From Thermoprotei archaeon (GTDB lineage Archaea; Thermoproteota; Thermoprotei; QMSL01), in NCBI GenBank assembly GCA_003650925.1, contig QMSP01000022.1:1-34193 (forward strand): a DNA stretch of 34,193 nt, read 5' to 3'. The position numbers and the translations under genes are program-made. Below are positions 2,166 to 32,737 of this stretch, in pieces; the stretch's first letter is position 1, and each line of letters starts with the position of its first letter. Below the pieces are notes generated by a model. The model was not told the origin of the DNA and did not search any database. It saw only the letters and a program-made list of their open reading frames with translations.

Positions 2166-2949
2166 CGATTAGCTTCTCTATTTTATCAACTATTTTGGAT
2201 ACCTGGAGGAAGAACTTTGTTCTCATGATCAGCCTTGGATTGCCTATGGCGCTTTCAAGCGTAGGGTCTATGGGGATATCCCCTAGATATTCTATCCCAC
2301 TCTCCTTGGCTAACTCTCTAATAGAAGTACCTCTAAAGATTTCAAGCTCCACCTTGCCCTGAGTCAACCTGCTCATGTTCTCTACAAGGCCCAAGATATT
2401 TATCCTGAGCTCTCTAAGCAGGGCGATAAGCCTCTTTACAGTAGCTACAGCAACCTTGGATGGTGTAGTCATCACTATTGCAAAGGCTTTATCTCTCAGA
2501 AGCCTTGTTGTGGTTAGCATTTCATCTCCAGTGCCTGGAGGAAGGTCAACAATTAGCCTGTCCAAGTTCGACCATCTAGTTATGGCCAACAGCTCGAGTA
2601 TGGCCTCAGCCTTTGAGCCTAGCCTTAATGGAAGAGGACTGCTCTCCACAAACAGAGCAAGAGACATCATCTCTACACCATAGACCTTGGGAGGGATGAG
2701 GCCTTCTCTGCTCTCACTAGGCATCCTATCATGTACTCCAAGTATCATTGGAACTACTGGCCCATGTAGGTCAAGGTCTAGAATACCTGCTCTAAGCCCT
2801 TTATCAGCGTAGGCTAGTGCCGTGGAGACTGAGAAAATGCTCTTCCCCACACCACCCTTCCCACTTGCTATGAGGAGCACCTTATCAATAGTTTTCATCC
2901 TCTCTCTTATGGCTATGATGCGTGGGTCTAGCCGCCTCTCACTCATCAC
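2137..2949 (-). CDS. hypB: Mrp/MinD-type ATPase, likely the atypical archaeal HypB
   Basis: This 270-residue P-loop ATPase has the deviant Walker A GKGGVGKS at about residues 31-38 and the DLPPGTGD Walker B-like segment typical of the Mrp/Nbp35 family. It lacks the C-terminal CxxC of Mrp cluster carriers. The gene overlaps hypA by the sequence GTGATGA (the hypA stop TGA lies inside its start), which signals translational coupling. In Thermococcus, HypA is known to work with an Mrp/MinD-family ATPase (atypical HypB) instead of the usual GTPase, and together they load nickel into NiFe hydrogenase. The pairing here and the hydrogenase operon 11 kb away support that role; a general Mrp Fe-S carrier is the alternative. 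Start could be GTG 2949 or ATG 2946. Confidence 0.85.
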   Translation of the reverse strand: MMSERRLDPRIIAIRERMKTIDKVLLIASGKGGVGKSIFSVSTALAYADKGLRAGILDLDLHGPVVPMILGVHDRMPSESREGLIPPKVYGVEMMSLALFVESSPLPLRLGSKAEAILELLAITRWSNLDRLIVDLPPGTGDEMLTTTRLLRDKAFAIVMTTPSKVAVATVKRLIALLRELRINILGLVENMSRLTQGKVELEIFRGTSIRELAKESGIEYLGDIPIDPTLESAIGNPRLIMRTKFFLQVSKIVDKIEKLIASHSTTPSP

Positions 2950-3359
2950 TTAACACCTCTTATCGACTCTATCCATACGCCTCTCCCACGAAGAAGCTCG
3001 AAATCAGGGCTACCACAATATGGGCATCTGACGAGAGCATACACAAGGTCGGGAACGAAGTGAATGGGATTATCCTCCCCTAGCTCACTTACCAGCTTGT
3101 TCTTCACCTCTCTGAAGCTCCAGGTCTTATCACAAGAGTTGCACTTGAAGACAGCCTCCTCCTCTCTTAAGATGAAACTGGCTCTCTCGGCTATGGTTCC
3201 CTTTGAAAGCTCCTTAAGAGCTAGCCTGAGTATATCCAGGTCTATCTGCGATATCTCGCCTACGACTATGATAACCTCCTCCACGCTTTTTACTGACCTC
3301 TCCTTGGCTACTTCAAGCACTGTATCCACTATGGACTTAGCCAAGGCCCATTCATGCAA
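2946..3359 (-). CDS. hypA: Hydrogenase nickel-insertion protein HypA
   Basis: HypA is a small metallochaperone that binds Ni(II) at its N-terminus and zinc in a treble-Cys domain, and delivers nickel to the large subunit of NiFe hydrogenase. The 137-residue protein starts MHEW, with the Ni-ligating His2 and Glu3. It carries CNSC near residue 73 and CPYC near 113 as the zinc site. The insert between the two CxxC pairs is longer than in bacterial HypA, as in thermococcal homologues. It is the first gene of a two-gene operon with the Mrp-type ATPase. The likely client is the hydrogenase at 16.8-18.1 kb. No other hyp genes (C, D, E, F) are present in the window. Confidence 0.93.
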   Translation of the reverse strand: MHEWALAKSIVDTVLEVAKERSVKSVEEVIIVVGEISQIDLDILRLALKELSKGTIAERASFILREEEAVFKCNSCDKTWSFREVKNKLVSELGEDNPIHFVPDLVYALVRCPYCGSPDFELLRGRGVWIESIRGVK

Positions 3360-6697: not shown

Positions 6698-7005
6698 GCA
6701 CATGAGAAAATATTTTTACAAAACACTTCCTTCACTTAATATTGGCCTATGATGAGGCCATCCCCGATGCTGAGAAGTGATGAAAGGGTAGGTTGCTGAA
6801 ATTTTTGTGATAACTTTCCATGGCACTCCAGGGTCAAATTAATGAAAAGTGCACTATATAATGCCTATTACGGTTTTGCGGATCGAGTAGGAGAATGATC
6901 TATCTGACTTTTCGATGAGGAGAAGAGATTGTAAAAAGACTTCAAGAACACTACGGCACTAGGCTGTCAAAGGAGGACTTTGACAAACTGCTTAAAGGGA
7001 GAGTT
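6698..7005. other. Intergenic region between apgM and the acetyltransferase gene
   Basis: This 308-bp gap holds the C/D sRNA at 6747-6801. After it comes a strong TATA-like CTATATAATG (6854-6863) that has no intact gene behind it, only a broken reading frame described separately. Nothing else was recognised. Confidence 0.6.
6747..6801 (+). ncRNA. C/D box guide sRNA 1
   Basis: Boxes are C = ATGATGA (6749-6755), D' = CTGA (6770-6773), C' = GTGATGA (6777-6783) and D = CTGA (6796-6799). The linker between D' and C' is 3 nt, the D' guide interval 14 nt and the D guide interval 12 nt. The D guide (AAGGGTAGGTTG) is complementary, with one G-U pair, to the UAACCUACCCU stretch of archaeal 16S rRNA around E. 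coli position 125, recalled from memory. A TATA-like AAAATATTTTTA lies roughly 30 nt upstream. These RNAs guide fibrillarin-Nop5-L7Ae 2'-O-methylation. 5' and 3' ends are estimates. Confidence 0.88.
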
Positions 7006-7014
7006 CTAGAAGCT
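6919..7014 (+). pseudogene. Possible gene remnant with protein-like coding but no start codon
   Basis: The frame GGA GAA GAG ATT GTA... reads as a plausible amphipathic helical peptide (EEIVKRLQEHYG, then LSKEDFDKLLKG). It lacks an in-frame start: an ATG at 6895, placed behind TAGGAGA and downstream of a TATA-like box at 6854-6863, runs into TGA at 6916 after seven codons. Beyond about 7006 the frame overlaps the 3' end of the convergent acetyltransferase gene and is probably meaningless. It could be a decayed short gene or a chance frame. No family recognised. Confidence 0.25.
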
Positions 7015-8271
7015 GTCGAACCTCCAGAAATAGGGATTGCCTGGTGGGAACAAAGCGTCAAACAGTTTGATTGCTTCATAAGGATGAACAATAGCATCAC
7101 CGTAGCCTACTGCAGTCCTTACGTCTCTAAATCCAGTAATGAGCTGAGCTAGTACTCTTTGATCCACCTTTAGTACTCCATCAGGAGAGGGAGCTCTTTC
7201 CTCGAGGACTTCTATCTCAGACTCCGAGATTCTTAAAGAGCAAATTCCAATGTCGGTCTCTATAGCCAGGGTCTTTTTCTGACTAGCGAGACCAGATTTC
7301 CTAGTTCTAGCTAACAATTCATCGGCTAGAGCCCGGAATAGAGACACTAGATCCACCACTTTGAGCATAGCGCCTGAGCGCGACTTTGAGAGATGGGCGC
7401 CTAGTTCGATAAGGAGCCACGTCATGGGATGATCCTCCGGTAATAAGGCTCTCATCGAGCTTATGCGGCGCTCAATGCACAGCTTGAGAAGTCTCCTCAA
7501 TAAGTAGACATAAGCGCCTTCAAACCCTCTTAGGGAGCATGCCTCCAAGATCGAGCATGTGTATTCGTTAAGTTTACTGCGAATATACGCTACAACAGAA
7601 TCATCTTTAAGAGCCACTAAGAAGCCCTCGGGAGTCTCAAAGCCGAGCTCGAAGGATCCTTTTAAGCGCAGACGCCAGTACTCTAAGGTTCTCTCGATGG
7701 TGCAAGTGCGTGATCGGTTGTCTTCATCATAGACACGGGCTACAGATTTCAAGTCATTCTCTTCAAATCTGCGAATTTCGTATTTAGGAATGTTACGAGA
7801 GCCTATGAAGTCCTCAAGCCTCTTAGCAAGTGATAGCACATCGCCTGAGATCGAGATATTATGGAGTACGACCTCCCATCCCAGCCTCCTGTAGAAGGGA
7901 GCTATGCCCGTGAAAAGGAGGGATACCACATAACCATGCTCTCTCATATAGTTCAAGGCATCCTTCAGGAGAGCAGTAGCAAGACCCCTTCTCCGGTAGG
8001 GTACTAAGGTGCTAACATCAGCTATTCCTCCCATTAGGACTAATGATGAGCCTATACGCATCCTTCTATGAACTATGCGAACGTTACTCACTATCTTGCC
8101 ATCGACTATCGCTATTCGGTTAAATTCTGGTCTGTGGTAAGGATCATAGGATATCGCTAGCTTGAAGTACTTACGCCTCTGCTGGTATTCCGAGAAGACT
8201 TCAGCATTTAACCTCACTATCTCCTCCAATTCCTCTTGAGTAGCACCGCGTATCTGAGGTCTGGAAGACAA
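7006..8271 (-). CDS. Eis-like GNAT N-acetyltransferase
   Basis: This 421-residue protein has the Eis-type three-domain plan: an N-terminal GNAT fold (about 1-145) with the acetyl-CoA loop VPYRRRGLATALL; a second, degenerate GNAT-like domain (about 150-290); and a C-terminal SCP2-like domain ending in the typical FFP/LFPPGNPYFW...F tail. Family members acetylate amines of antibiotics, polyamines or protein lysines; the archaeal substrate is unknown. The start is TTG at 8271 behind GGTGA, with a TATA-like CTTTTTAAC centred near 8312 on the minus strand. A perfect dyad abuts that TATA box and suggests regulated expression. Monocistronic. Confidence 0.88.
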   Translation of the reverse strand: MSSRPQIRGATQEELEEIVRLNAEVFSEYQQRRKYFKLAISYDPYHRPEFNRIAIVDGKIVSNVRIVHRRMRIGSSLVLMGGIADVSTLVPYRRRGLATALLKDALNYMREHGYVVSLLFTGIAPFYRRLGWEVVLHNISISGDVLSLAKRLEDFIGSRNIPKYEIRRFEENDLKSVARVYDEDNRSRTCTIERTLEYWRLRLKGSFELGFETPEGFLVALKDDSVVAYIRSKLNEYTCSILEACSLRGFEGAYVYLLRRLLKLCIERRISSMRALLPEDHPMTWLLIELGAHLSKSRSGAMLKVVDLVSLFRALADELLARTRKSGLASQKKTLAIETDIGICSLRISESEIEVLEERAPSPDGVLKVDQRVLAQLITGFRDVRTAVGYGDAIVHPYEAIKLFDALFPPGNPYFWRFDSF

Positions 8272-8317
8272 GGGGCTTCACCGCTTCTAACCTAGGTCAT
8301 AATAGGGTTAAAAAGAA

Positions 8318-8348
8318 TTTCGTGTGAGAACACTGATCTCACACGAAA
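8318..8348. promoter_or_regulatory. Perfect inverted repeat next to the acetyltransferase TATA box
   Basis: TTTCGTGTGAG (8318-8328) and CTCACACGAAA (8338-8348) are exact reverse complements separated by 9 nt. The dyad lies directly upstream of the TATA-like element (about 8307-8316, minus strand) of the gene starting at 8271. A dyad at the BRE side of an archaeal promoter is the usual place for an activator or repressor dimer. A transcribed hairpin is less likely because it would lie upstream of the start site. Confidence 0.7.
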
Positions 8349-8362
8349 GGTAATCTGTATAT

Positions 8363-8554
8363 CTAGGAGCTTGAACTCTGTGATCCAAGGGGAGAGATCG
8401 AGCTTGGACAGCCTCTCTCTATGGTGCAGACGGCAGATTTTAGTATCATTCTGAACCATTTCAAGCCTTTCTGCATTTGAAGCTCAGCTACTCGGATGAG
8501 AAGCTCAACAGCTCCGATAGCCATCTCTTCAGGACCAAAATCCACAAGCTCCAT
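8363..8554 (-). CDS. Doubtful 63-residue open reading frame
   Basis: The first two thirds (MELVDFGPEEMAIGAVELLIR, then a basic helix with KGLKWFRMIL) look protein-like; the last residues are Ser-rich and look like read-through. CTCTTAATA, about 25-30 nt upstream on the minus strand, could be a TATA box for a leaderless message. No ribosome binding site and no recognised family. It could be a fragment of a lost gene in an eroded interval. Confidence 0.3.
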   Translation of the reverse strand: MELVDFGPEEMAIGAVELLIRVAELQMQKGLKWFRMILKSAVCTIERGCPSSISPLGSQSSSS

Positions 8555-8882
8555 AACAGGCCTAACGTTGATTGGGGGTATTAAGAGCTGATCTTTTGGC
8601 TATGAGGACCTACTATCTCGCGAAGTAGTAAAGACCCGGCATTTAGCCCTTTCTATTCCCTTCGGGAAGAGAGATATGAACGTGAAATCTTTTAGGATAA
8701 AGAGGGTACAGCGCCTCCTCAGCCTCTCTGGCAAGGAACTCGCCTGATCTTTGCTAGACCTTTTATTTAAAGGTGGAAAGCTATTACAATTTCTGTGCTG
8801 AGAGTATGTTGCTGAGCTTTTCTGTTCACTCATGTCATTGAGAAGAGCAACTGAATTAGCTAAGGATGCGAATCGAAATAGC
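8555..8882. other. Gene-poor stretch with a start-less open frame and an orphan TATA-like box
   Basis: No intact gene was found. On the plus strand, 8593-8747 is open for about 50 codons and ends in a natural-looking peptide (FRIKRVQRLLSLSGKELA, stop). It has no upstream start apart from a late ATG at 8676 giving 23 residues, so it may be a gene remnant. At about 8761-8774 a TTTATTTAAAGG element resembles a TATA box. It faces a plus-strand frame that soon overlaps the large convergent gene and is judged spurious. Confidence 0.35.
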
Positions 8883-10580
8883 TTAGGTCGCTATCTCAAT
8901 GACTATTATAATCCTTGGTATTGTGAAAACAGCTCCACTAGAGTCTCTGAGCACTATTCTATTGTTCTCATCAAGGTCTATGATAAGATAGAACTTATCA
9001 CACTGATTGATGACATTCTTCCATTCATATGCAAGGAAGGCTGGGCCTGGCCAATACTCCTCTACAAGCTTCTCTGCTATTACTGGATGGTAGTATAGGA
9101 CAAAGTGCTTATCATGCCACCATAGTACCCAGCCCCTAGTGAATGCAGGAGGCAGTGCTACTTTTGACACTTCATTGAACTGTTTTATGGATTTCATGTG
9201 CCTTTCTGCAAGTTGTTTTAATCTTAAGTCCTCCCTATAGTGTGGATATAGCTCCAAAAACCTCTGCTTTGTAAGTCTTACAATCAACCTGATATCCTCC
9301 TCCGTTATATGATATGTCCTCTTCTTCAGAGCATCTCCACTCCAGGTCCAGATATGTACTATCTCTGGCTCATTATCCTCTCCTAGTCTGATGGCATAGA
9401 ATGTCACGTTTAAGATTTCATCACCATCCTCCAAGAGCTCCCAGTAATAATTTCCTATAGGTATTAATGGTAGATGCTGGTCTAAGACGAAGTACTCATT
9501 ATGGATCTTTATTGCAACTGCTGCATGGCTGGTCTCCTTATTCTTAAAGCTGATGTCGAGCATGTACACTGGAGAAACTCCAGAATCAAGAAGCAGTGCT
9601 GCTGTCAAAAGCGCATAGTCTGAGCATATTCCCTTCTTGTAGTAGACAGTCTCATTTATTGCATAGAGCTTTGAACTATCAAGTTGAGCTTTTACGTGAT
9701 CATACTCTATGTTCTCACTAATCCACTTAAGCACAGCCCATGCCCTATCAAGGACCGTGTCATAGATGAGAAACTGCCTGGAGATGTACTGTATTTCTCT
9801 TCGAAAGAGAATGCATAAACCAGCCTTGAATGCCTCTTCATTATAGAAGTGCCTCCAATCATACCTTGGATTGGTCCCAATCTTCACCTCATAGCCATCA
9901 GGAAGATAGTCCTTGTCAGTATCCTTCTCTCTTGGATCAGTCTGATAATAAAGTATCTCCTCACCATCCGTTAGACCATCCTGATCAGTGTCAGCGCTGA
10001 GTGGATCAGTATAGTACTTATTAACCTCCTCTCCATCCCACAGCTCATCCCCATCAGTATCTCTGTTCAGAGGATCTGTTCCAAGCATTAGCTCCATGGA
10101 ATCCACTAGGTCATCTTCATCACTATCAGGGCTTAGTGGATTGGTGTGGTATTGTTCCAGCTCTGCTTTGTCACTTATATTATCATGGTCCGTATCTGAG
10201 CTTAATGGATTAGTTCCAGCCATGATCTCCTCCAGATTATTGAGTCCATCATAGTCAAGGTCAAAGATAGGGCAAAGCATTATGATGAGGAGAAGTGCTA
10301 GAGCTATCACTATGCCCTTCCTCCATCCTCGCCTTGGAGACTTAGGTCGACTAGCCCTGACCTTAACTACACGACTTGGAATCTCACCTCTTGGACTAGG
10401 ATAGGCTCTAACACCACCAGGAACATAGATTATTGATTCATGTCGTCTTGCTTTATACTCTCTCAGGCCTGGGCAATCATGATTCTCTGGCAGGTGGTGT
10501 TTAACGCAGAAGATTCTTCCACAGAATTTGCACCTATAGGGTAGCGCCACCTCTTGACCGCAATAATCACACCTAGCCAC
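8883..10580 (-). CDS. Membrane-anchored protein: AN1 zinc finger, TSP3 calcium repeats, transglutaminase-like domain
   Basis: Domains in order: an AN1-type zinc finger at residues 4-36 with all ligands (C4, C7, C17, C20, C25, H28, H34, C36); a basic linker; one transmembrane helix near 89-108 preceded by RRGWRKG, so the N-terminus should be cytosolic and the rest outside; about five thrombospondin type-3 / dockerin-like calcium repeats of the DxDxDGLxDxxE kind between about 108 and 235; and a transglutaminase-like cysteine protease fold near 280-400 with GICSDYA (Cys), SHAAV (His) and VLDQH (Asp). The C-terminal 150 residues are unassigned. Start is GTG at 10580 with ATATTTAAT about 25-30 nt upstream, suggesting a leaderless message. 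It may act in cell-surface remodelling; partners unknown. Confidence 0.85.
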   Translation of the reverse strand: MARCDYCGQEVALPYRCKFCGRIFCVKHHLPENHDCPGLREYKARRHESIIYVPGGVRAYPSPRGEIPSRVVKVRASRPKSPRRGWRKGIVIALALLLIIMLCPIFDLDYDGLNNLEEIMAGTNPLSSDTDHDNISDKAELEQYHTNPLSPDSDEDDLVDSMELMLGTDPLNRDTDGDELWDGEEVNKYYTDPLSADTDQDGLTDGEEILYYQTDPREKDTDKDYLPDGYEVKIGTNPRYDWRHFYNEEAFKAGLCILFRREIQYISRQFLIYDTVLDRAWAVLKWISENIEYDHVKAQLDSSKLYAINETVYYKKGICSDYALLTAALLLDSGVSPVYMLDISFKNKETSHAAVAIKIHNEYFVLDQHLPLIPIGNYYWELLEDGDEILNVTFYAIRLGEDNEPEIVHIWTWSGDALKKRTYHITEEDIRLIVRLTKQRFLELYPHYREDLRLKQLAERHMKSIKQFNEVSKVALPPAFTRGWVLWWHDKHFVLYYHPVIAEKLVEEYWPGPAFLAYEWKNVINQCDKFYLIIDLDENNRIVLRDSSGAVFTIPRIIIVIEIAT

Positions 10581-14274: not shown

Positions 14275-15264
14275 TTGGAAACCTCATGGTACAGCATAGA
14301 CAAGAATCCTCTAGAGACCATATTCAGAAGAATAAGAGAGCTTGGATATAGAGTCATAGCACCCATAAGACTTAATGAAGACCACGTGGTGCTAGACTTT
14401 GCCAACAAATTTGATGAAGTATCCCTTGACTTCATCAGGCCTAGGAACAATCCAAAGAGCTTCCTATTTCCTAATGAAGATACGCTGCTATACTTCGACT
14501 ATAGGTCACAAAACATAAAATCGCCACTCAACCATAGCGAGAAGCTAGCGCTATTCTGCATACATCCATGTGACGCTAATGCCATCTACGTGCTGGACAA
14601 GATGTTGCTAGACCCTCCTGAAGATCCCTATTATATGCTACGAAGGAGAAACTTGATGATAGTGGTTCTCGACTGCGAGAAGGCTGATGACTACTGCTTC
14701 TGTGAGAGCGTAGAGTCCAGAGTACCTCGCGTATATGACCTATGGATAGTGCCAAGCTCCTCAAAATATTTCATCTCCATAGGCAGCCGCCTAGGCTCAC
14801 TCATCATAGATCATTTACCTATCAAGAAGGATAGAAGTCCAGAGATAAGAGAATTGAACGTCAAGAAGTACAGCTTCGACTGGAGCCATCTCAGAGACCT
14901 GTATGACAATGAGGTGTGGAGAGAGCTCTCAGAACAATGTGTACTCTGTGGAAGCTGTCTATCAAGCTGTCCTACCTGCGTATGCTTTGATGTTGTCGAT
15001 AGAGTCTCCCATGACCTAAACGCTTGTAGAAGGGTAAGAGTATGGGATTCCTGCATATTCAGAACCTTCACTATGTTGGCTGGAGGAAGGATCGTAAGGA
15101 AAAGCCCTGAGGAGAGATTCAAGTTCAGGTTCTATCACAAATTTGTCTTCATCAAAGAGCGCTATGGAGTCTTCGGCTGTACAGGATGTGGTAGATGTAT
15201 CTCCAGGTGTAGTAGCCATATACATCCCCTGGAGGTCGTGAGCGAGGTGTTGAGAAATGCTTAA
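14275..15264 (+). CDS. hydB: Sulfhydrogenase beta subunit (4Fe-4S electron-transfer subunit)
   Basis: It is the Fe-S subunit of a cytosolic group 3b NiFe hydrogenase, passing electrons between the small subunit and the flavin subunit. The N-terminal domain has the family's FCIHPCDANAI and DPPEDPYYMLRRRN segments. The C-terminal part has two clusters of cysteines: C222-x2-C225-x2-C228-x3-C232 followed by C235 and C237, and C302-x2-C305-x2-C308-x3-C312. The start is TTG at 14275, 5 nt after GAGGTG. Its 3' end overlaps hydG by ATGCTTAA. The Pyrococcus order beta-gamma-delta-alpha is preserved. The 329-residue length is slightly short for the family. Confidence 0.92.
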   Translation: METSWYSIDKNPLETIFRRIRELGYRVIAPIRLNEDHVVLDFANKFDEVSLDFIRPRNNPKSFLFPNEDTLLYFDYRSQNIKSPLNHSEKLALFCIHPCDANAIYVLDKMLLDPPEDPYYMLRRRNLMIVVLDCEKADDYCFCESVESRVPRVYDLWIVPSSSKYFISIGSRLGSLIIDHLPIKKDRSPEIRELNVKKYSFDWSHLRDLYDNEVWRELSEQCVLCGSCLSSCPTCVCFDVVDRVSHDLNACRRVRVWDSCIFRTFTMLAGGRIVRKSPEERFKFRFYHKFVFIKERYGVFGCTGCGRCISRCSSHIHPLEVVSEVLRNA

Positions 15265-16063
15265 TCCCTACATGCCAAGGCTAGCTCACATAGTTGATGT
15301 AGTTGATGAAACTCGCGACGTCAAGACCTTCATACTCAGGCCTGAGTCTGCCATCCGCTTTGAGCCAGGTCAGTTCATCATGATATCAGCCTTTGGAGTG
15401 GGCGAAGCCCCCTTTGCGATAGCCTCCTCGCCCTTCAGGCCAGAGCTCATTGAAGTGTCAATAAGGGCTGTCGGCAACGTGACAAGAGCTCTTCACAGGA
15501 TGGAAAAAGGAGATGTAGTAGGCATCAGAGGCCCCTATGGCAATGGCTTTCCTGTTGATCAGATCAAAGGTCATAACGTGGTGTTTATAGCGGGAGGGAC
15601 AGGTATCTTTGGGATATCTTCCTTCGTATGGTATATATTTGAGAAGAGAGATGACTTCAGCGATGTATATCTGCTCTATGGTGTGAGAAGGCCCTCGCTT
15701 ATGATGAGACGCTATGATCTTGAGAAGTGGCGTGATCGTATAGAGGTCTTCTTGACGGTAGATGTTCCTGAGCCTGGATGGAATGGCCATGTGGGACTAG
15801 TGACAGACCTGCTCGATAGACTAAGCCTTCCTAGACACGATGTAGTGTTTGCTCTGTGCGGGCCTCCACTTATGATAAAGTTCGCCTACTACAAGCTGCG
15901 AAAAATGGGATATGGTGCAGATCAGATATTTGTATCATTAGAGAGAAATATGAAATGTGGAATAGGCAAATGCGGAAGATGCATGCTATCCAATGGCCTC
16001 TATGTATGTAAGGATGGTCCAGTCTTTAGATGTGATCAGATACCAGAGAGGGATATAGAATGA
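15257..16063 (+). CDS. hydG: Sulfhydrogenase gamma subunit (FAD/NAD(P)-binding)
   Basis: This ferredoxin-NADP reductase-like flavoprotein exchanges electrons with NAD(P)H in the group 3b hydrogenase. Seen in the 268-residue protein are an FAD-binding beta-barrel with FEPGQFIMISAFGVG and APFAIASSP, the nucleotide-binding VVFIAGGTGIFGI near residue 113, LLYGVRRPS, and a C-terminal iron-sulfur motif CGIGKCGRCxxxxxYVCKDGPVF as in dihydroorotate dehydrogenase B electron-transfer subunits. Start ATG 15257 overlaps the end of hydB by 8 nt and its stop overlaps hydD by 4 nt, so translation is probably coupled. Whether NADP or NAD is preferred cannot be read with confidence. Confidence 0.93.
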   Translation: MLNPYMPRLAHIVDVVDETRDVKTFILRPESAIRFEPGQFIMISAFGVGEAPFAIASSPFRPELIEVSIRAVGNVTRALHRMEKGDVVGIRGPYGNGFPVDQIKGHNVVFIAGGTGIFGISSFVWYIFEKRDDFSDVYLLYGVRRPSLMMRRYDLEKWRDRIEVFLTVDVPEPGWNGHVGLVTDLLDRLSLPRHDVVFALCGPPLMIKFAYYKLRKMGYGADQIFVSLERNMKCGIGKCGRCMLSNGLYVCKDGPVFRCDQIPERDIE

Positions 16064-16818
16064 TAAGGCCCATGAGGATAACCATAGCTCAGTATAGTTT
16101 AAGCGGATGTGAAGGATGTGCCTTACGCCTACTGAACATAATAACATCTAACGAGAAATTAATTGATCACATTGAGCTTGTGTCCTCAAGAGTGATGGGC
16201 ATTCCCGAGGTGAGGCAGGCTGATGTAGCCTTTGTGGATGGAAGCGTATTGAGGGATAACGAAGAAGAATTCCTCATGGAGATAAGGTCTAAGTCTAGGA
16301 TACTTGTAGCTCTAGGGACATGCTCTATAATGGGAGGTCTTAATGCCCTTCGAGAGCTATACACCGTAGCTGAGCTTGAAGAACAAGTATATGGAATGAA
16401 ACTTAACATAGGACACCTTGACTCTGCCAAACCGCTTGACAGTATAGTCAAAGTTGACTATATCATACCAGGATGTCCTCCTCCAACTTGGGAAATAGAG
16501 GAGTTCCTACTATGCCTTCTGCTGGGCAAGGAGTTCAGACTAACCGATAGGACTGTGTGTTTTGAGTGCACTTCGCAAGGTCTTCCATGCCTTCTAGAAA
16601 GAGGTGAGGTGTGCTTCGGTCCTGTGATAAGAGGCGGATGCAACGCTATATGTCCAAAGTATGGCATTCCTTGCTGGGGCTGCAGAGGAATTGTAGAGGA
16701 GTATGGCATGGAGAGGCTCATCGAGAATCTAAGGAAACATAATGTGAGCCCTGAAAGGGTCAAGGAGTACATCAGGATATTTCTCCTCAAGACAAAGCTG
16801 AGAACACTTATGAGGTGA
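16060..16818 (+). CDS. hydD: Sulfhydrogenase delta subunit (NiFe hydrogenase small subunit)
   Basis: The small subunit carries the Fe-S relay from the NiFe site. The proximal-cluster ligands are visible: C17 and C20 in SGCEGC, C88 in LGTCSIMGG and C139 in PGCPPP. A further Cys-rich stretch follows (CFECTSQGLPC, then GGCNAICPKYGIPCWGC), consistent with medial and distal clusters. There is no twin-arginine signal, so the enzyme is cytosolic. The 252-residue length fits the Pyrococcus HydD group. It overlaps hydG and hydA by 4 nt each, giving a tightly coupled operon. Confidence 0.93.
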   Translation: MIRPMRITIAQYSLSGCEGCALRLLNIITSNEKLIDHIELVSSRVMGIPEVRQADVAFVDGSVLRDNEEEFLMEIRSKSRILVALGTCSIMGGLNALRELYTVAELEEQVYGMKLNIGHLDSAKPLDSIVKVDYIIPGCPPPTWEIEEFLLCLLLGKEFRLTDRTVCFECTSQGLPCLLERGEVCFGPVIRGGCNAICPKYGIPCWGCRGIVEEYGMERLIENLRKHNVSPERVKEYIRIFLLKTKLRTLMR

Positions 16819-18086
16819 ATGTCTTGGAAGAGAGGTCTTTCATCCCTGGAATTGAAGGTCCTATGAAAGTGGAGGTCTCAATCGACCCATCCTCTAGACG
16901 ACTAGTAGACCTTGAGATAAAGCCCATGGAGAGCTCTAGGTTCTTTGAAGTAATACTTCTAAATCGAGAAGCCAAAGCAGTTCCTTACATAGCCAGCAGG
17001 ATATGTGGTATATGTGGATATGCCCATGCCTTATGCTCAGCCATGGCTATTGAGGATGCCTGGAGGTTAGAAGTACCAGACTCAGTCAGAAGTCTTCGCG
17101 AGCTGATCGCTATCCTAAGCACCGTAAATAGCCATCTCTTCCACTTGGTCACACTGCTCTTCACCTGGCTCGGCAGGTCAAGACCCATCTCACTAAACTT
17201 TAAGCGCAATTTGATAGAGCTCATGAAGGTCAAGACGCACACCATAGACAAAGCCCTTAATGAGCTCTGTGGAGATAAGCTGCATCCAAGGAACATAGTG
17301 CCAGGAGGCTTCACTTATCTCCCATCCATGAATAGAGTCATGAGCACATTGGAGGGCGTGAATAGATTGAACAAGCTAGTGTATGGCCTTGTAGAGGAAC
17401 TTCTCTCCTTTGATCTCCTGAGGGAGGAAGATTTCAAAACTCACTACGTAGCCTTAAAGAATGAGACTAGATACGGCCTCCTGGAGGGCTGTATATCCAT
17501 AGACTCCATGATAGAGATAAAGGTCTCAAACTTCAAGAAGTACTTCATAGAACAGAGCATCTCAGGCTCTCCCGCCAAGCTATGTCTCCTCTATGGAAAA
17601 GAGAGCTACATGGTTGGAGCCTTGGCACGTCTCAATGTTAACTCATGTCAGGAATGTGAGTATCGAAGGTGGCTACACAAGCTGCCCTCAACAAATCCCT
17701 ACCTCATCCCAATAGCCCAAGGGGTGGAGGTCATGAAGTTCCTTGACATCATCCAAGACTTAAGGCGTGAACTCCGTGATGAGCCAAGACTAGTCAAGCC
17801 TCATCACTACCCCAGAAGAGCTAGAGGCATGAGTGCCATAGAAGCTCCAAGAGGTCTTCTCTACTATGAAGTTGAGGTCATCAGCCATAAGCTCACAGCT
17901 CTTGACATCATAACTCCAACAGTTCAAAATCTCGCTAATATGAAGGACAGTTTAAAGTACATAGTACAACGCCTGCTTGAGGGCATGAAGCGCGCTCAGA
18001 TCGATGAAATAAGAAGAGAGGCTGAAAGACTAGTGCAGTGCTATGACCCTTGCATACCTTGTGCAGTTCATGTCCATGAGACTTGA
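16815..18086 (+). CDS. hydA: Sulfhydrogenase alpha subunit (NiFe hydrogenase large subunit)
   Basis: The catalytic subunit binds the NiFe(CN)2CO centre. N-terminal ligands are C64 and C67 in RICGICGYAH. C-terminal ligands are C413 and C416 in DPCIPCAVH. Only four residues (VHET) follow the cleavage-site His419. This matches the Pyrococcus enzyme, where a four-residue tail is removed by a HycI/FrxA-type endopeptidase after nickel insertion. The window carries no such protease gene. Length 423 is normal for group 3b. It is the last gene of hydBGDA, and HypA and the Mrp-type HypB 12 kb away are its likely maturases. Reactions are reversible H2 oxidation coupled to NADP(H), and possibly sulfur/polysulfide reduction. 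Confidence 0.95.
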   Translation: MNVLEERSFIPGIEGPMKVEVSIDPSSRRLVDLEIKPMESSRFFEVILLNREAKAVPYIASRICGICGYAHALCSAMAIEDAWRLEVPDSVRSLRELIAILSTVNSHLFHLVTLLFTWLGRSRPISLNFKRNLIELMKVKTHTIDKALNELCGDKLHPRNIVPGGFTYLPSMNRVMSTLEGVNRLNKLVYGLVEELLSFDLLREEDFKTHYVALKNETRYGLLEGCISIDSMIEIKVSNFKKYFIEQSISGSPAKLCLLYGKESYMVGALARLNVNSCQECEYRRWLHKLPSTNPYLIPIAQGVEVMKFLDIIQDLRRELRDEPRLVKPHHYPRRARGMSAIEAPRGLLYYEVEVISHKLTALDIITPTVQNLANMKDSLKYIVQRLLEGMKRAQIDEIRREAERLVQCYDPCIPCAVHVHET

Positions 18087-29173: not shown

Positions 29174-30576
29174 CTAGGTGGTAATTCTAATCGTTTTATA
29201 TAAGTTTATGGTCGCACCTAGAGAGTTTGTCTTCACCCATACCTTCATTGGTAGCACAGCTACCTCTAGGTATGGGTACATTGACCTCGGGGCTAACGGC
29301 ATAAAGCCCCTCATCCACAGGTTAATACATGCAATAACGTCTCGGTCGTGGGAAAAACCACATTTAGGACAAGTCATCACCCTCGGAGCATAGCTCCTCA
29401 TCAGGTACGAACCACAAACTGGGCATCTAGAGGAGGAACCTCTTGGATTAACCTTAACTACAGGTACTCCTTCTTTTTCAGCAATCTCCTCAATAGTCTT
29501 TATCATACCTTTAAATGCAGACTGATATATTCTGTACCTCAACTTCCTATTACTTATGTTGCTAATCATTTTCTCTGGAGCCTTTTCTGGCAGGTCTTCA
29601 ATTATTATTCCAAACCTTCTTCTCTTAGCCTCATTAACTATTATTCTAGCTATCTTAAACCTCCAATCACGCTTTCTCCTACCCTCTCTAAGCTTCCTAA
29701 AAATCCTTCTCCAGTACTGGTATAATGGGAACTTCTTTTTCCAATAGCCATTGTAAACTTCCTCTGTATCTTTATCCTAAACTTATAATATCTTACAATA
29801 ATGTTCCTCATCAACGTTATGAACTTTATAGCAACATTATCTACTAGTATTGTAACATTATTCTCATTTACATCAACAGCCAGATACCCTATAGGCTTGT
29901 AAGTTTTAATCTCCTTCTCAAGGACGAAGTACACGTAAATTCTCAGCTCCCTAGCATCTAGTTTTATTTTTGGTTGTGTTCTTAGTTTCCAAGTGGAGTT
30001 GATGTATTTCCAGAATAACTTATGTGGTTTTAGTTCTACAGCTATCCATCCCTTATGTGTAGCCATCTTTATTGTTGTATATCCTAGCGTTTTCCATAGA
30101 TGGTCATCAAGCCAAATACTAATTCTCTTAACCTTAGGTTTAACTACTTCATCTCTCATTTCTCGTTCTACTTGATACCTTGCAATCTTCCTAACTATCC
30201 TGTAGACTACCTTTCTTTCCTCCTTACTTAGTCTGCTTAACTTAACGCCGTAATGCCTCTTTATTTCTTCCAATATTTCTTCAGTTAAGTCCTCAACTCT
30301 CTTCTCTATGAAGCTCTTAACTCTAGTACATGCATCTTGACAGATAGTGTGAATATAGTGGCTTGGTAGTTGAGGATATCTCTGCCGAAACTTATAGTAT
30401 AGATGCTTCTTTAAGCCCGTAAAAGACTTAATGTAGTTCCTTGAAGCATAGTCTACTGCTTCTACAAGTAACACTTTATACATGTTGACTAACTCCTTTA
30501 ATATTTCATACTTCCTCTTAGTTAATATTATGCTGGGAACAATAACTGTTCTAGTTATTCTAACCACTCTTTTCAA
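29174..30576 (-). pseudogene. tnpB: TnpB RNA-guided nuclease of IS607, broken by one frameshift
   Basis: The first frame (ATG 30576) encodes the N-terminal REC/WED-like part and RuvC-I in YLAVDVNENN. A second frame takes over between about 29782 and 29751 and continues to 29174 with KKFPLYQYWRRIFRKL, RuvC-II Glu in FGIIIEDLPEKAPEK, the Cys4 zinc ribbon CPVC...CPKC, and RuvC-III Asp in HDRDVIACINL. All catalytic residues survive, so the lesion is recent or a sequencing error; the offset equals one missing base. TnpB cuts DNA guided by an omega RNA transcribed from the element's right end and helps retain the transposon. As read, only truncated products are made. Confidence 0.85.
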
Positions 30577-31201
30577 CCTCCTCTAATAAATGTTTAAAAC
30601 CTTGAACTAAGCGTTTCTTCTTGTGGCTTCTCATACCGTAGAGCTTACCAGCGAATGAGGTAACTATCGCTATCAAGTCTTCAACTAACTCTTGATAGGC
30701 ATCTTTAGATTCCTCACCATAGACTACTTCTATTTTCACATCAAACTGCTTAAAGAAGTATTCTAAGTATTCAAAACCGAACCTTGTAAGTCTATCCTTA
30801 TAGGTGACAACAACTACGTCTATCTGTCTATCTATTACATAGTCGAAGAGCTTTTGTAATCCTCTGCGATTAGTTTTAAGCCCACTAGCAATATCACTTA
30901 GAATATCAATTACTTTGTAACCTTTAGCAGAGCAATACTGCATAAGATATTGTATTTGCCTCTCAAGGTCTTTCCTCTGGTCTGAGGAACTAACACGAGC
31001 ATAAATAATAGCTCTAACTTCCCCTGCCTCCACTCCACTTAATAACCTCTTTACTTCACTCTCTGGTATACGATATTTACCTCCAAGTGTTCGTACTGCT
31101 CTTATTCTCCCCTCCTTAATCCACCTACGAAGAGTAACATAACTAACACCAAGAAGCTTACAAACCTCCTTAGGTCTCAGCAGACGCTCGCTCATTTTCA
31201 T
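30560..31201 (-). CDS. tnpA: IS607-family serine recombinase (TnpA)
   Basis: This 213-residue transposase has an N-terminal MerR-like helix-turn-helix (RPKEVCKLLGVSYVTLRRWI, residues 7-26), followed by a serine recombinase catalytic domain: YARVSSSDQRKDLERQ with the nucleophile Ser near 71, SDIASGLKTNRRGLQKL, and VVTYKDRLTRFGFEY. The N-terminal position of the DNA-binding domain is diagnostic of IS607 rather than classical resolvases. The protein looks complete and active. It starts at ATG 31201 (a second ATG is two codons later) and overlaps tnpB by 17 nt. Confidence 0.93.
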   Translation of the reverse strand: MKMSERLLRPKEVCKLLGVSYVTLRRWIKEGRIRAVRTLGGKYRIPESEVKRLLSGVEAGEVRAIIYARVSSSDQRKDLERQIQYLMQYCSAKGYKVIDILSDIASGLKTNRRGLQKLFDYVIDRQIDVVVVTYKDRLTRFGFEYLEYFFKQFDVKIEVVYGEESKDAYQELVEDLIAIVTSFAGKLYGMRSHKKKRLVQGFKHLLEEVEKSG

Positions 31202-31525: not shown

Positions 31526-31945
31526 ATGAGGAGAAAAGGAGTGTACATCGTCAGAAGTGTCCTTCTGATGATAGCATTGAGCATGATCTTGACGCCAAGA
31601 ATAGGAGTAATACTGGGCTTATTCATGGCCTCGATCATAGCAGGCATGTTATCGGCAAGGCCAGAAGTCGCGACAGTAGTAGGCAACGTAGGCTTCATAG
31701 GATGGTTCTGTGTCCTTGCTCTATTGTTTATAGTCAAGAGGGCTGGCTATGAAGGCTTCACCAAGATGCTTGAGGCCTATGGAATCTCAACGATCACGAA
31801 CACTATAATACCATATCTACAAGCCTGTGGACACTGGTCGGTGGTGTGTGTAGCCATGGCGGCTGCACTCTTTACTCCGATAGTGGGAGGAGGCATAGGA
31901 GGAGCATTAGGGCTACTGATTAGAGCTAAGATGAGCCGATCTTAG
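31526..31945 (+). CDS. Small multi-pass membrane protein, unknown function
   Basis: This 139-residue protein has about four hydrophobic segments (VLLMIALSMIL, GLFMASIIAGML, NVGFIGWFCVLALLFIV and VVCVAMAAALFTPIVGGGIGG). The Gly-rich end GGGIGGALGLL suggests a packed final helix. No family recognised. A TATA-like CCTTTTATC is about 45 nt upstream of ATG 31526. The 3' end overlaps the convergent nucleotidyltransferase gene by 20 nt. Confidence 0.65.
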   Translation: MRRKGVYIVRSVLLMIALSMILTPRIGVILGLFMASIIAGMLSARPEVATVVGNVGFIGWFCVLALLFIVKRAGYEGFTKMLEAYGISTITNTIIPYLQACGHWSVVCVAMAAALFTPIVGGGIGGALGLLIRAKMSRS

Positions 31946-32696
31946 AGCGAGCCCAACCGCTTATGCGCCTATATAAGTCCAGAGCCCATCTACAGTCCTC
32001 GCTCGTTATCACAGCATCAGGGTCGTATCGAGCTTTATTCCTGACCTCAAGCATCTTATAGAGGAGGCTGACGACATCATCACTTAGCTCTCCTCTCTCC
32101 TTCACATAAGTGGTCACGAATACGTGAATGTATCCTCCATGAGTTGAAGGAAGAGGTTTGCCTGCATACATTATCATGGCCTTGAGTATCAGTTCAACTG
32201 CGTTCTGACAAGCATCAATACACAGCCTATATGCTCCCATATCATGGGCCTTAAGGGCATAATTGAAGTACTCCTCAGCGAGGCTTAGAAGCTTCGTGAC
32301 TCGTTTCTTCAATACCTCCTCAGACAAGTACAACACCTTACCATAGTTTCTAACCTCGTACATAAAAGGATTAGATTCATCATAGTATTTAGCCATGAAC
32401 TCTTCAATATTGTACACCATGAACTCTATGTCTTCACCATACCTCTCATAAACCTCAAGAGCTGCATTACATATGCCTCTATAGGCCTCATCTGTTAGTG
32501 AGGATACCACTATCAGCACGTCAATATCACTATGCTCAGTGGCCATCCCTTTGGCTAGACTTCCAAAGAGGATAACTGCATAGAGGCTATCACCTATGAT
32601 CCCTTCAAGAAGATCCATGAACAGCTCCAGAGCCTGCTGTTTTCTGCTCAAACTCATATTTTCAACTAAAGATGCTTTACGCTGCCAGATAAGCAT
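31926..32696 (-). CDS. Nucleotidyltransferase (MNT)-HEPN fusion protein
   Basis: The N-terminal domain is a minimal nucleotidyltransferase with FGSLAKGMATEHSDIDVLIV (GSx..DxD motif) and a downstream acidic strand IEFMVY. The C-terminal domain, from about residue 140, is HEPN: AEEYFNYALKAHDMG, an ALKAMI-type helix and EVRNKARYDPD, where R-x4-Y replaces the usual R-x4-H. MNT and HEPN are normally separate genes of a toxin-antitoxin pair in which MNT AMPylates the HEPN toxin. A single-chain fusion resembles kanamycin nucleotidyltransferase-like proteins. GTG 32708 is possible, but GAGGTG at 32706-32711 points to ATG 32696. It lies about 40 nt after the LEA14-like gene. Confidence 0.8.
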   Translation of the reverse strand: MLIWQRKASLVENMSLSRKQQALELFMDLLEGIIGDSLYAVILFGSLAKGMATEHSDIDVLIVVSSLTDEAYRGICNAALEVYERYGEDIEFMVYNIEEFMAKYYDESNPFMYEVRNYGKVLYLSEEVLKKRVTKLLSLAEEYFNYALKAHDMGAYRLCIDACQNAVELILKAMIMYAGKPLPSTHGGYIHVFVTTYVKERGELSDDVVSLLYKMLEVRNKARYDPDAVITSEDCRWALDLYRRISGWARSKIGSS

Positions 32697-32737
32697 AACG
32701 TCCAGCACCTCATCGGTGACTTGATGAAGCTCATTAG

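Follow-up and report, generated by a model that had tools for sequence, protein, structure and literature searches.

We find a perfect dyad at positions 8318-8348 (no strand assigned) of the 34,193-nt stretch of Thermoprotei archaeon DNA that was analysed, which we call the window, and we tentatively interpret it as a lineage-specific candidate site, serving a single gene, at which a helix-turn-helix regulator would bind as a dimer; the regulator's own gene would lie elsewhere in the genome. The dyad lies at the edge of the promoter of a gene for an Eis-like N-acetyltransferase. We favour this single-gene operator weakly, and closely ahead of a palindrome without function; we infer both protein binding and the direction of control. 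If the dyad is an operator, it would mark where a regulator binds to control an Eis-like acetyltransferase, one that passes from lineage to lineage; the archaeon itself is hydrothermal and uncultured. The impact is local, with one site, one gene, no regulon and no conservation, and only demonstrated binding would make the finding more than ordinary.

The initial annotation had described an 11-bp dyad of the form TTTCGTGTGAG-N9-CTCACACGAAA. This sequence is present as an exact match where it had been placed, and an extra A-T pair lies inside it, such that the arms are really 12 bp long (8318-8329 and 8337-8348) and flank a 7-nt centre. Read on the gene strand, these 12-bp arms are TTTCGTGTGAGA and TCTCACACGAAA. 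The dyad is the longest perfect one of the short-spacer type in the window, where the initial annotation had called it the strongest operator-like symmetry. The order on the gene strand is dyad, TTC, a TATA-like box TTTTTAA (8308-8314, minus strand), a Shine-Dalgarno-like GGTGA (8278-8282, minus strand) located 6 nt upstream of the start, and the TTG start codon of the acetyltransferase gene. The usual archaeal spacing leads us to expect a transcription start near 8285. The proximal dyad arm overlaps the BRE position (about 8316-8321). The dyad had been said to abut the TATA box, and its promoter position is indeed as claimed, but 3 bp separate it from the TTTTTAA downstream and it overlaps the BRE position, so that it is not strictly abutting. 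This overlap with, or adjacency to, the core promoter is what would be expected of a single-gene operator. Bacterial sigma-70 promoter predictions close to the dyad were set aside because the genome is archaeal, Thermoprotei MAGs from Guaymas being the closest matches that carry a name.

The acetyltransferase gene (7006-8271, minus strand, TTG start at 8271) encodes a protein of 421 amino acids that was assigned on the basis of domain and structure matches. Pfam places a GNAT domain, Acetyltransf_9, at residues 6-134 (88.9 bits) and an SCP2-like domain, SCP2_2, at residues 345-416 (24.8 bits), both above cut-off. The protein therefore has the combination of a GNAT domain and a C-terminal SCP2-like domain that defines the Eis family, as do the Eis family N-acetyltransferases described previously (PMC5799202; PDB 6rft Eis2, 3n7z), although the protein studied here is archaeal and distant from them. 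Its PDB matches include Eis2 (6rft) and the Eis-like 3n7z. The earlier description of the product as Eis-like is thus upheld by its architecture and by these structural matches, but not by the NCBIfam Eis equivalog model, for which it scores 23.9 bits, far under the cut-off of 576. Judged from its sequence, the protein is a distant Eis relative and not Eis itself, and the "drug/polyamine" substrate assigned to it is a guess from family membership.

A genome search for the half-site had been suggested as a means of defining a regulon, and no regulon emerged from it. The full dyad occurs once in the 2.1-Mb genome. When the core GTGTGAG-N9-CTCACAC was searched in the same genome with up to 3 mismatches, 60 sites were found, as compared to 47 for the reversed control, and the 4 sites with 2 mismatches all lie inside ORFs. 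Likewise, the exact core at any spacing from 0 to 30 has no second occurrence beyond this dyad in five genomes, and the DNA outside ORFs shows no enrichment of half-sites when up to 2 mismatches are allowed (5, versus a mean of 8.5 for shuffled motifs). Across 398 genomes of the phylum, the only matches are the orthologue in the genome designated G002 and one unrelated 3-mismatch site, while the reversed control gives 1. The viral contigs searched hold no copy of the dyad, and an Rfam search at the dyad returned no family. The motif is therefore not found before other genes of the genome, as it would be in a conserved regulon. The further claim that no regulator gene is adjacent agrees with our scan of the window ORFs, which revealed no ordinary regulator; the sole helix-turn-helix protein identified by Pfam among the ORFs scanned is the resolvase of an insertion element (30560-31201). 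This IS607-like element (29174-31201, minus strand) comprises the serine resolvase, with its MerR-type helix-turn-helix, beside an apparently split TnpB. One TnpB-like piece (29650-30576) has no Pfam match and the other (29174-29569) carries a Cas12f1-like TNB domain, and from their sequences the TnpB of the element is probably broken.

The dyad is slightly rarer than chance predicts; it is modestly unusual as a sequence, and its position makes it more so. When the window was shuffled 200 times with dinucleotides preserved, 5.5% of the shuffles contained a perfect dyad with arms of at least 12 and a spacer of at most 20, a comparison in which the dyad at 8318-8348 had been chosen as the window's best; with arms of at least 11, the proportion of the 200 shuffles rises to 19%. 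Sampling 400 kb of this genome, we observed 3 dyads with arms of at least 11, versus 3.2 expected from shuffles. All 3 are located outside ORFs, in a fraction that makes up 9.5% of the sampled DNA, and by our own calculation the Poisson P for this location is about 0.004. Given that the count matches the shuffles while all 3 sampled dyads are outside ORFs, it is mainly by location that the dyad is unusual. Other long perfect dyads of this genome, outside ORFs of at least 100 amino acids, are L050:17295-17331, L057:17912-17937 and L066:12121-12144, and the first of these sits between divergent genes, one prolyl-tRNA-synthetase-like and the other NADH-dehydrogenase-subunit-like.

Only two close homologues of the acetyltransferase were found in the genomes searched, both in Guaymas MAGs: G046 (Thermoprotei MAG B17_G15), with 95% protein identity, and G002 (MAG B3_G16), with 97% protein identity over 116 amino acids at a contig end. 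Both MAGs are placed in families other than that of the window's genome (G000). DNA comparison with G046 reveals a common block with 89.75% identity (6778-8369, minus strand) that comprises the gene, its promoter and the proximal part of the dyad, and that occupies a different gene neighbourhood in G046. Since a block of approximately 90% DNA identity is found in other families and in a different neighbourhood, the gene and its promoter have probably moved horizontally between archaeal lineages, as judged from these alignments, although a binning error in one MAG could instead account for the appearance of recent transfer. Farther upstream, a long intergenic gap (8349-8882, minus strand), shared in part with G002, holds a 57-amino acid stretch (8408-8578) that is broken in G002 and is possibly a decayed ORF. 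The gap was rejected as a coding gene, since it matches no Pfam family and G002 alone has a homologue. Beyond it, an unusual protein (8883-10580, minus strand) combines an AN1 zinc finger, TSP3 repeats and a DUF553/transglutaminase-like domain.

The initial annotation would have taken two things together, no conservation of the dyad upstream of orthologues and no protein binding, as refuting its proposal, and the first of the two holds in the two orthologues found. In G002, 27 of the 31 dyad bases are identical (87%), as compared to 91% in the noncoding DNA at 8349-8573 and 94% at third codon positions; the 3 arm substitutions (3/22) represent a rate no lower than that of flanking noncoding DNA, and they weaken the symmetry. 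In G046 the dyad is broken: the distal arm has lost 5 bases and another five arm bases differ, while the TATA stretch at 8307-8317 is identical; in G002 that stretch has 1 substitution, which falls outside the box. The GGTGA motif is conserved in both. The dyad is thus not conserved above background, as a regulon site would be, and these alignments give no sign of constraint, with little power to see it because there are only three sequences. Promoters of distant homologues (25-38% identity) are without a matching dyad.

The single-gene operator is favoured, at low confidence, because of the positions of known regulator sites and the existence of small regulons. With the half-site centres 20 bp apart, or about two helical turns, the two halves lie on one face of the helix. 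A dimer occupying both would lie over the BRE and reach the TFB/TBP site; by keeping TFB/TBP away it would repress the acetyltransferase promoter, activation through TFB/TBP recruitment being the less likely alternative. Among the archaeal regulators that have been studied, dimers bound immediately upstream of the BRE act as activators, and binding next to the TATA box can repress (PMC2995911). The sites of the archaeal Lrp-type regulators Ptr2, LysM and Ss-LrpB likewise place a palindrome at the upstream edge of the target's BRE/TATA (PMC2995911), but Lrp-type targets usually carry several imperfect sites in a cluster, and the palindrome used by FL11 measures 13 bp, whereas here there is a single perfect 31-bp dyad with no known binding protein. 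The GntR-family operator of YtrA_Sa from Sulfolobus acidocaldarius is an inverted repeat of similar length (32 bp), and this archaeal regulator has a very small regulon of two targets (PMC6746942), indicating that the lack of further dyad copies is not fatal to an operator. The YtrA_Sa site differs in that it covers the transcription start downstream of the TATA box, is conserved across species and has its regulator encoded in a target operon, while the dyad described here is upstream of the TATA box, is unconserved and has no adjacent regulator gene.

What speaks for the operator is a perfect dyad at the BRE/TATA edge, together with the intergenic location of all the sampled dyads with arms of at least 11, at least one of which (L050:17295-17331) lies between divergent genes. 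Counting against it are evolution no slower than that of the surroundings, the break in G046, the lack of another genomic site, and the equally good dyad found in about 5% of shuffled windows. The closest rival is a palindrome that arose by coincidence or as a mutational product, for example by template-switch correction of a quasi-palindrome, with the core promoter as the only conserved part. We regard this as nearly as likely as the operator: dyads in the genome sample are as numerous as in shuffles, the G002 arm substitutions are no rarer than those in flanking noncoding DNA, G046 has lost part of the distal arm yet keeps its TATA region, and the dyad has no other copies; pure chance would nevertheless not be expected to yield a place at a promoter edge, or a concentration of long dyads outside ORFs. 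Least probable of all is a mobile segment that carried the acetyltransferase gene between lineages and had its end, or a recombination site, at the dyad. While the gene block is common to genomes of different families and neighbourhoods, homology runs through the dyad, to 8369 in G046 and past 8573 in G002, and neither the far side of the block nor the rest of the genome has a second copy of the dyad, so that a mobile-element end is largely refuted.

It is also unlikely that the dyad acts as RNA, as a gene-strand hairpin and U-rich tract that would stop or insulate incoming readthrough transcription before the promoter. The predicted fold does contain both elements, a gene-strand hairpin (-17.4 kcal/mol) and then UUCUUUUUAA, a combination that resembles the hairpin and T-rich run of a bacterial-type intrinsic terminator, and the upstream gene is on the same strand in all three genomes. 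That T-run, however, is the following gene's TATA box, the end of the upstream gene is more than 530 bp from the dyad, and archaeal terminators are U-tracts in which a preceding hairpin is unusual (PMC8716108). On the gene strand, each of the 3 substitutions in the G002 arms replaces C with T and retains pairing as G-U, with a predicted fold of -10.7 kcal/mol on this strand versus -2.8 on the opposite one. But C-to-T accounts for 12 of the 28 noncoding changes between G000 and G002, and because it dominates, three pairing-preserving changes would arise by chance approximately 17% of the time by our estimate. G046 lacks this hairpin and has, about 20 nt further upstream, a different, perfect 14-bp one (-30.2 kcal/mol; L003 1370-1413, equivalent to L085 7393-7436), although no U-tract follows it and G046 is rich in perfect dyads anyway, with 9 perfect inverted repeats with arms of at least 11 in 264 kb versus 1.3 in shuffles, 8 of the 9 inside ORFs. 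These repeats, with arms of 11-15 and short spacers, are spread across L072-L085 (for example, L075:17780-17810 and L077:13742-13775), and their excess is either natural or an assembly effect. It is very improbable that a promoter-edge hairpin is upheld by differing sequences (the 12-bp dyad in G000, the G-U stem in G002 and the 14-bp hairpin in G046) and would, through RNA or DNA structure, insulate the promoter of a horizontally moving gene from host readthrough.

Elsewhere in the window, a sulfhydrogenase-like cluster (14275-18086, plus strand) encodes an Fe-S protein, an FAD/NAD reductase, and NiFe small and large subunits, and a HypA-like metallochaperone is encoded at 2946-3359. A further ORF (31926-32708, minus strand) has nucleotidyltransferase and HEPN domains fused in one reading frame, in the manner of the MNT-HEPN type, and from this domain content it is a possible toxin-antitoxin relative.
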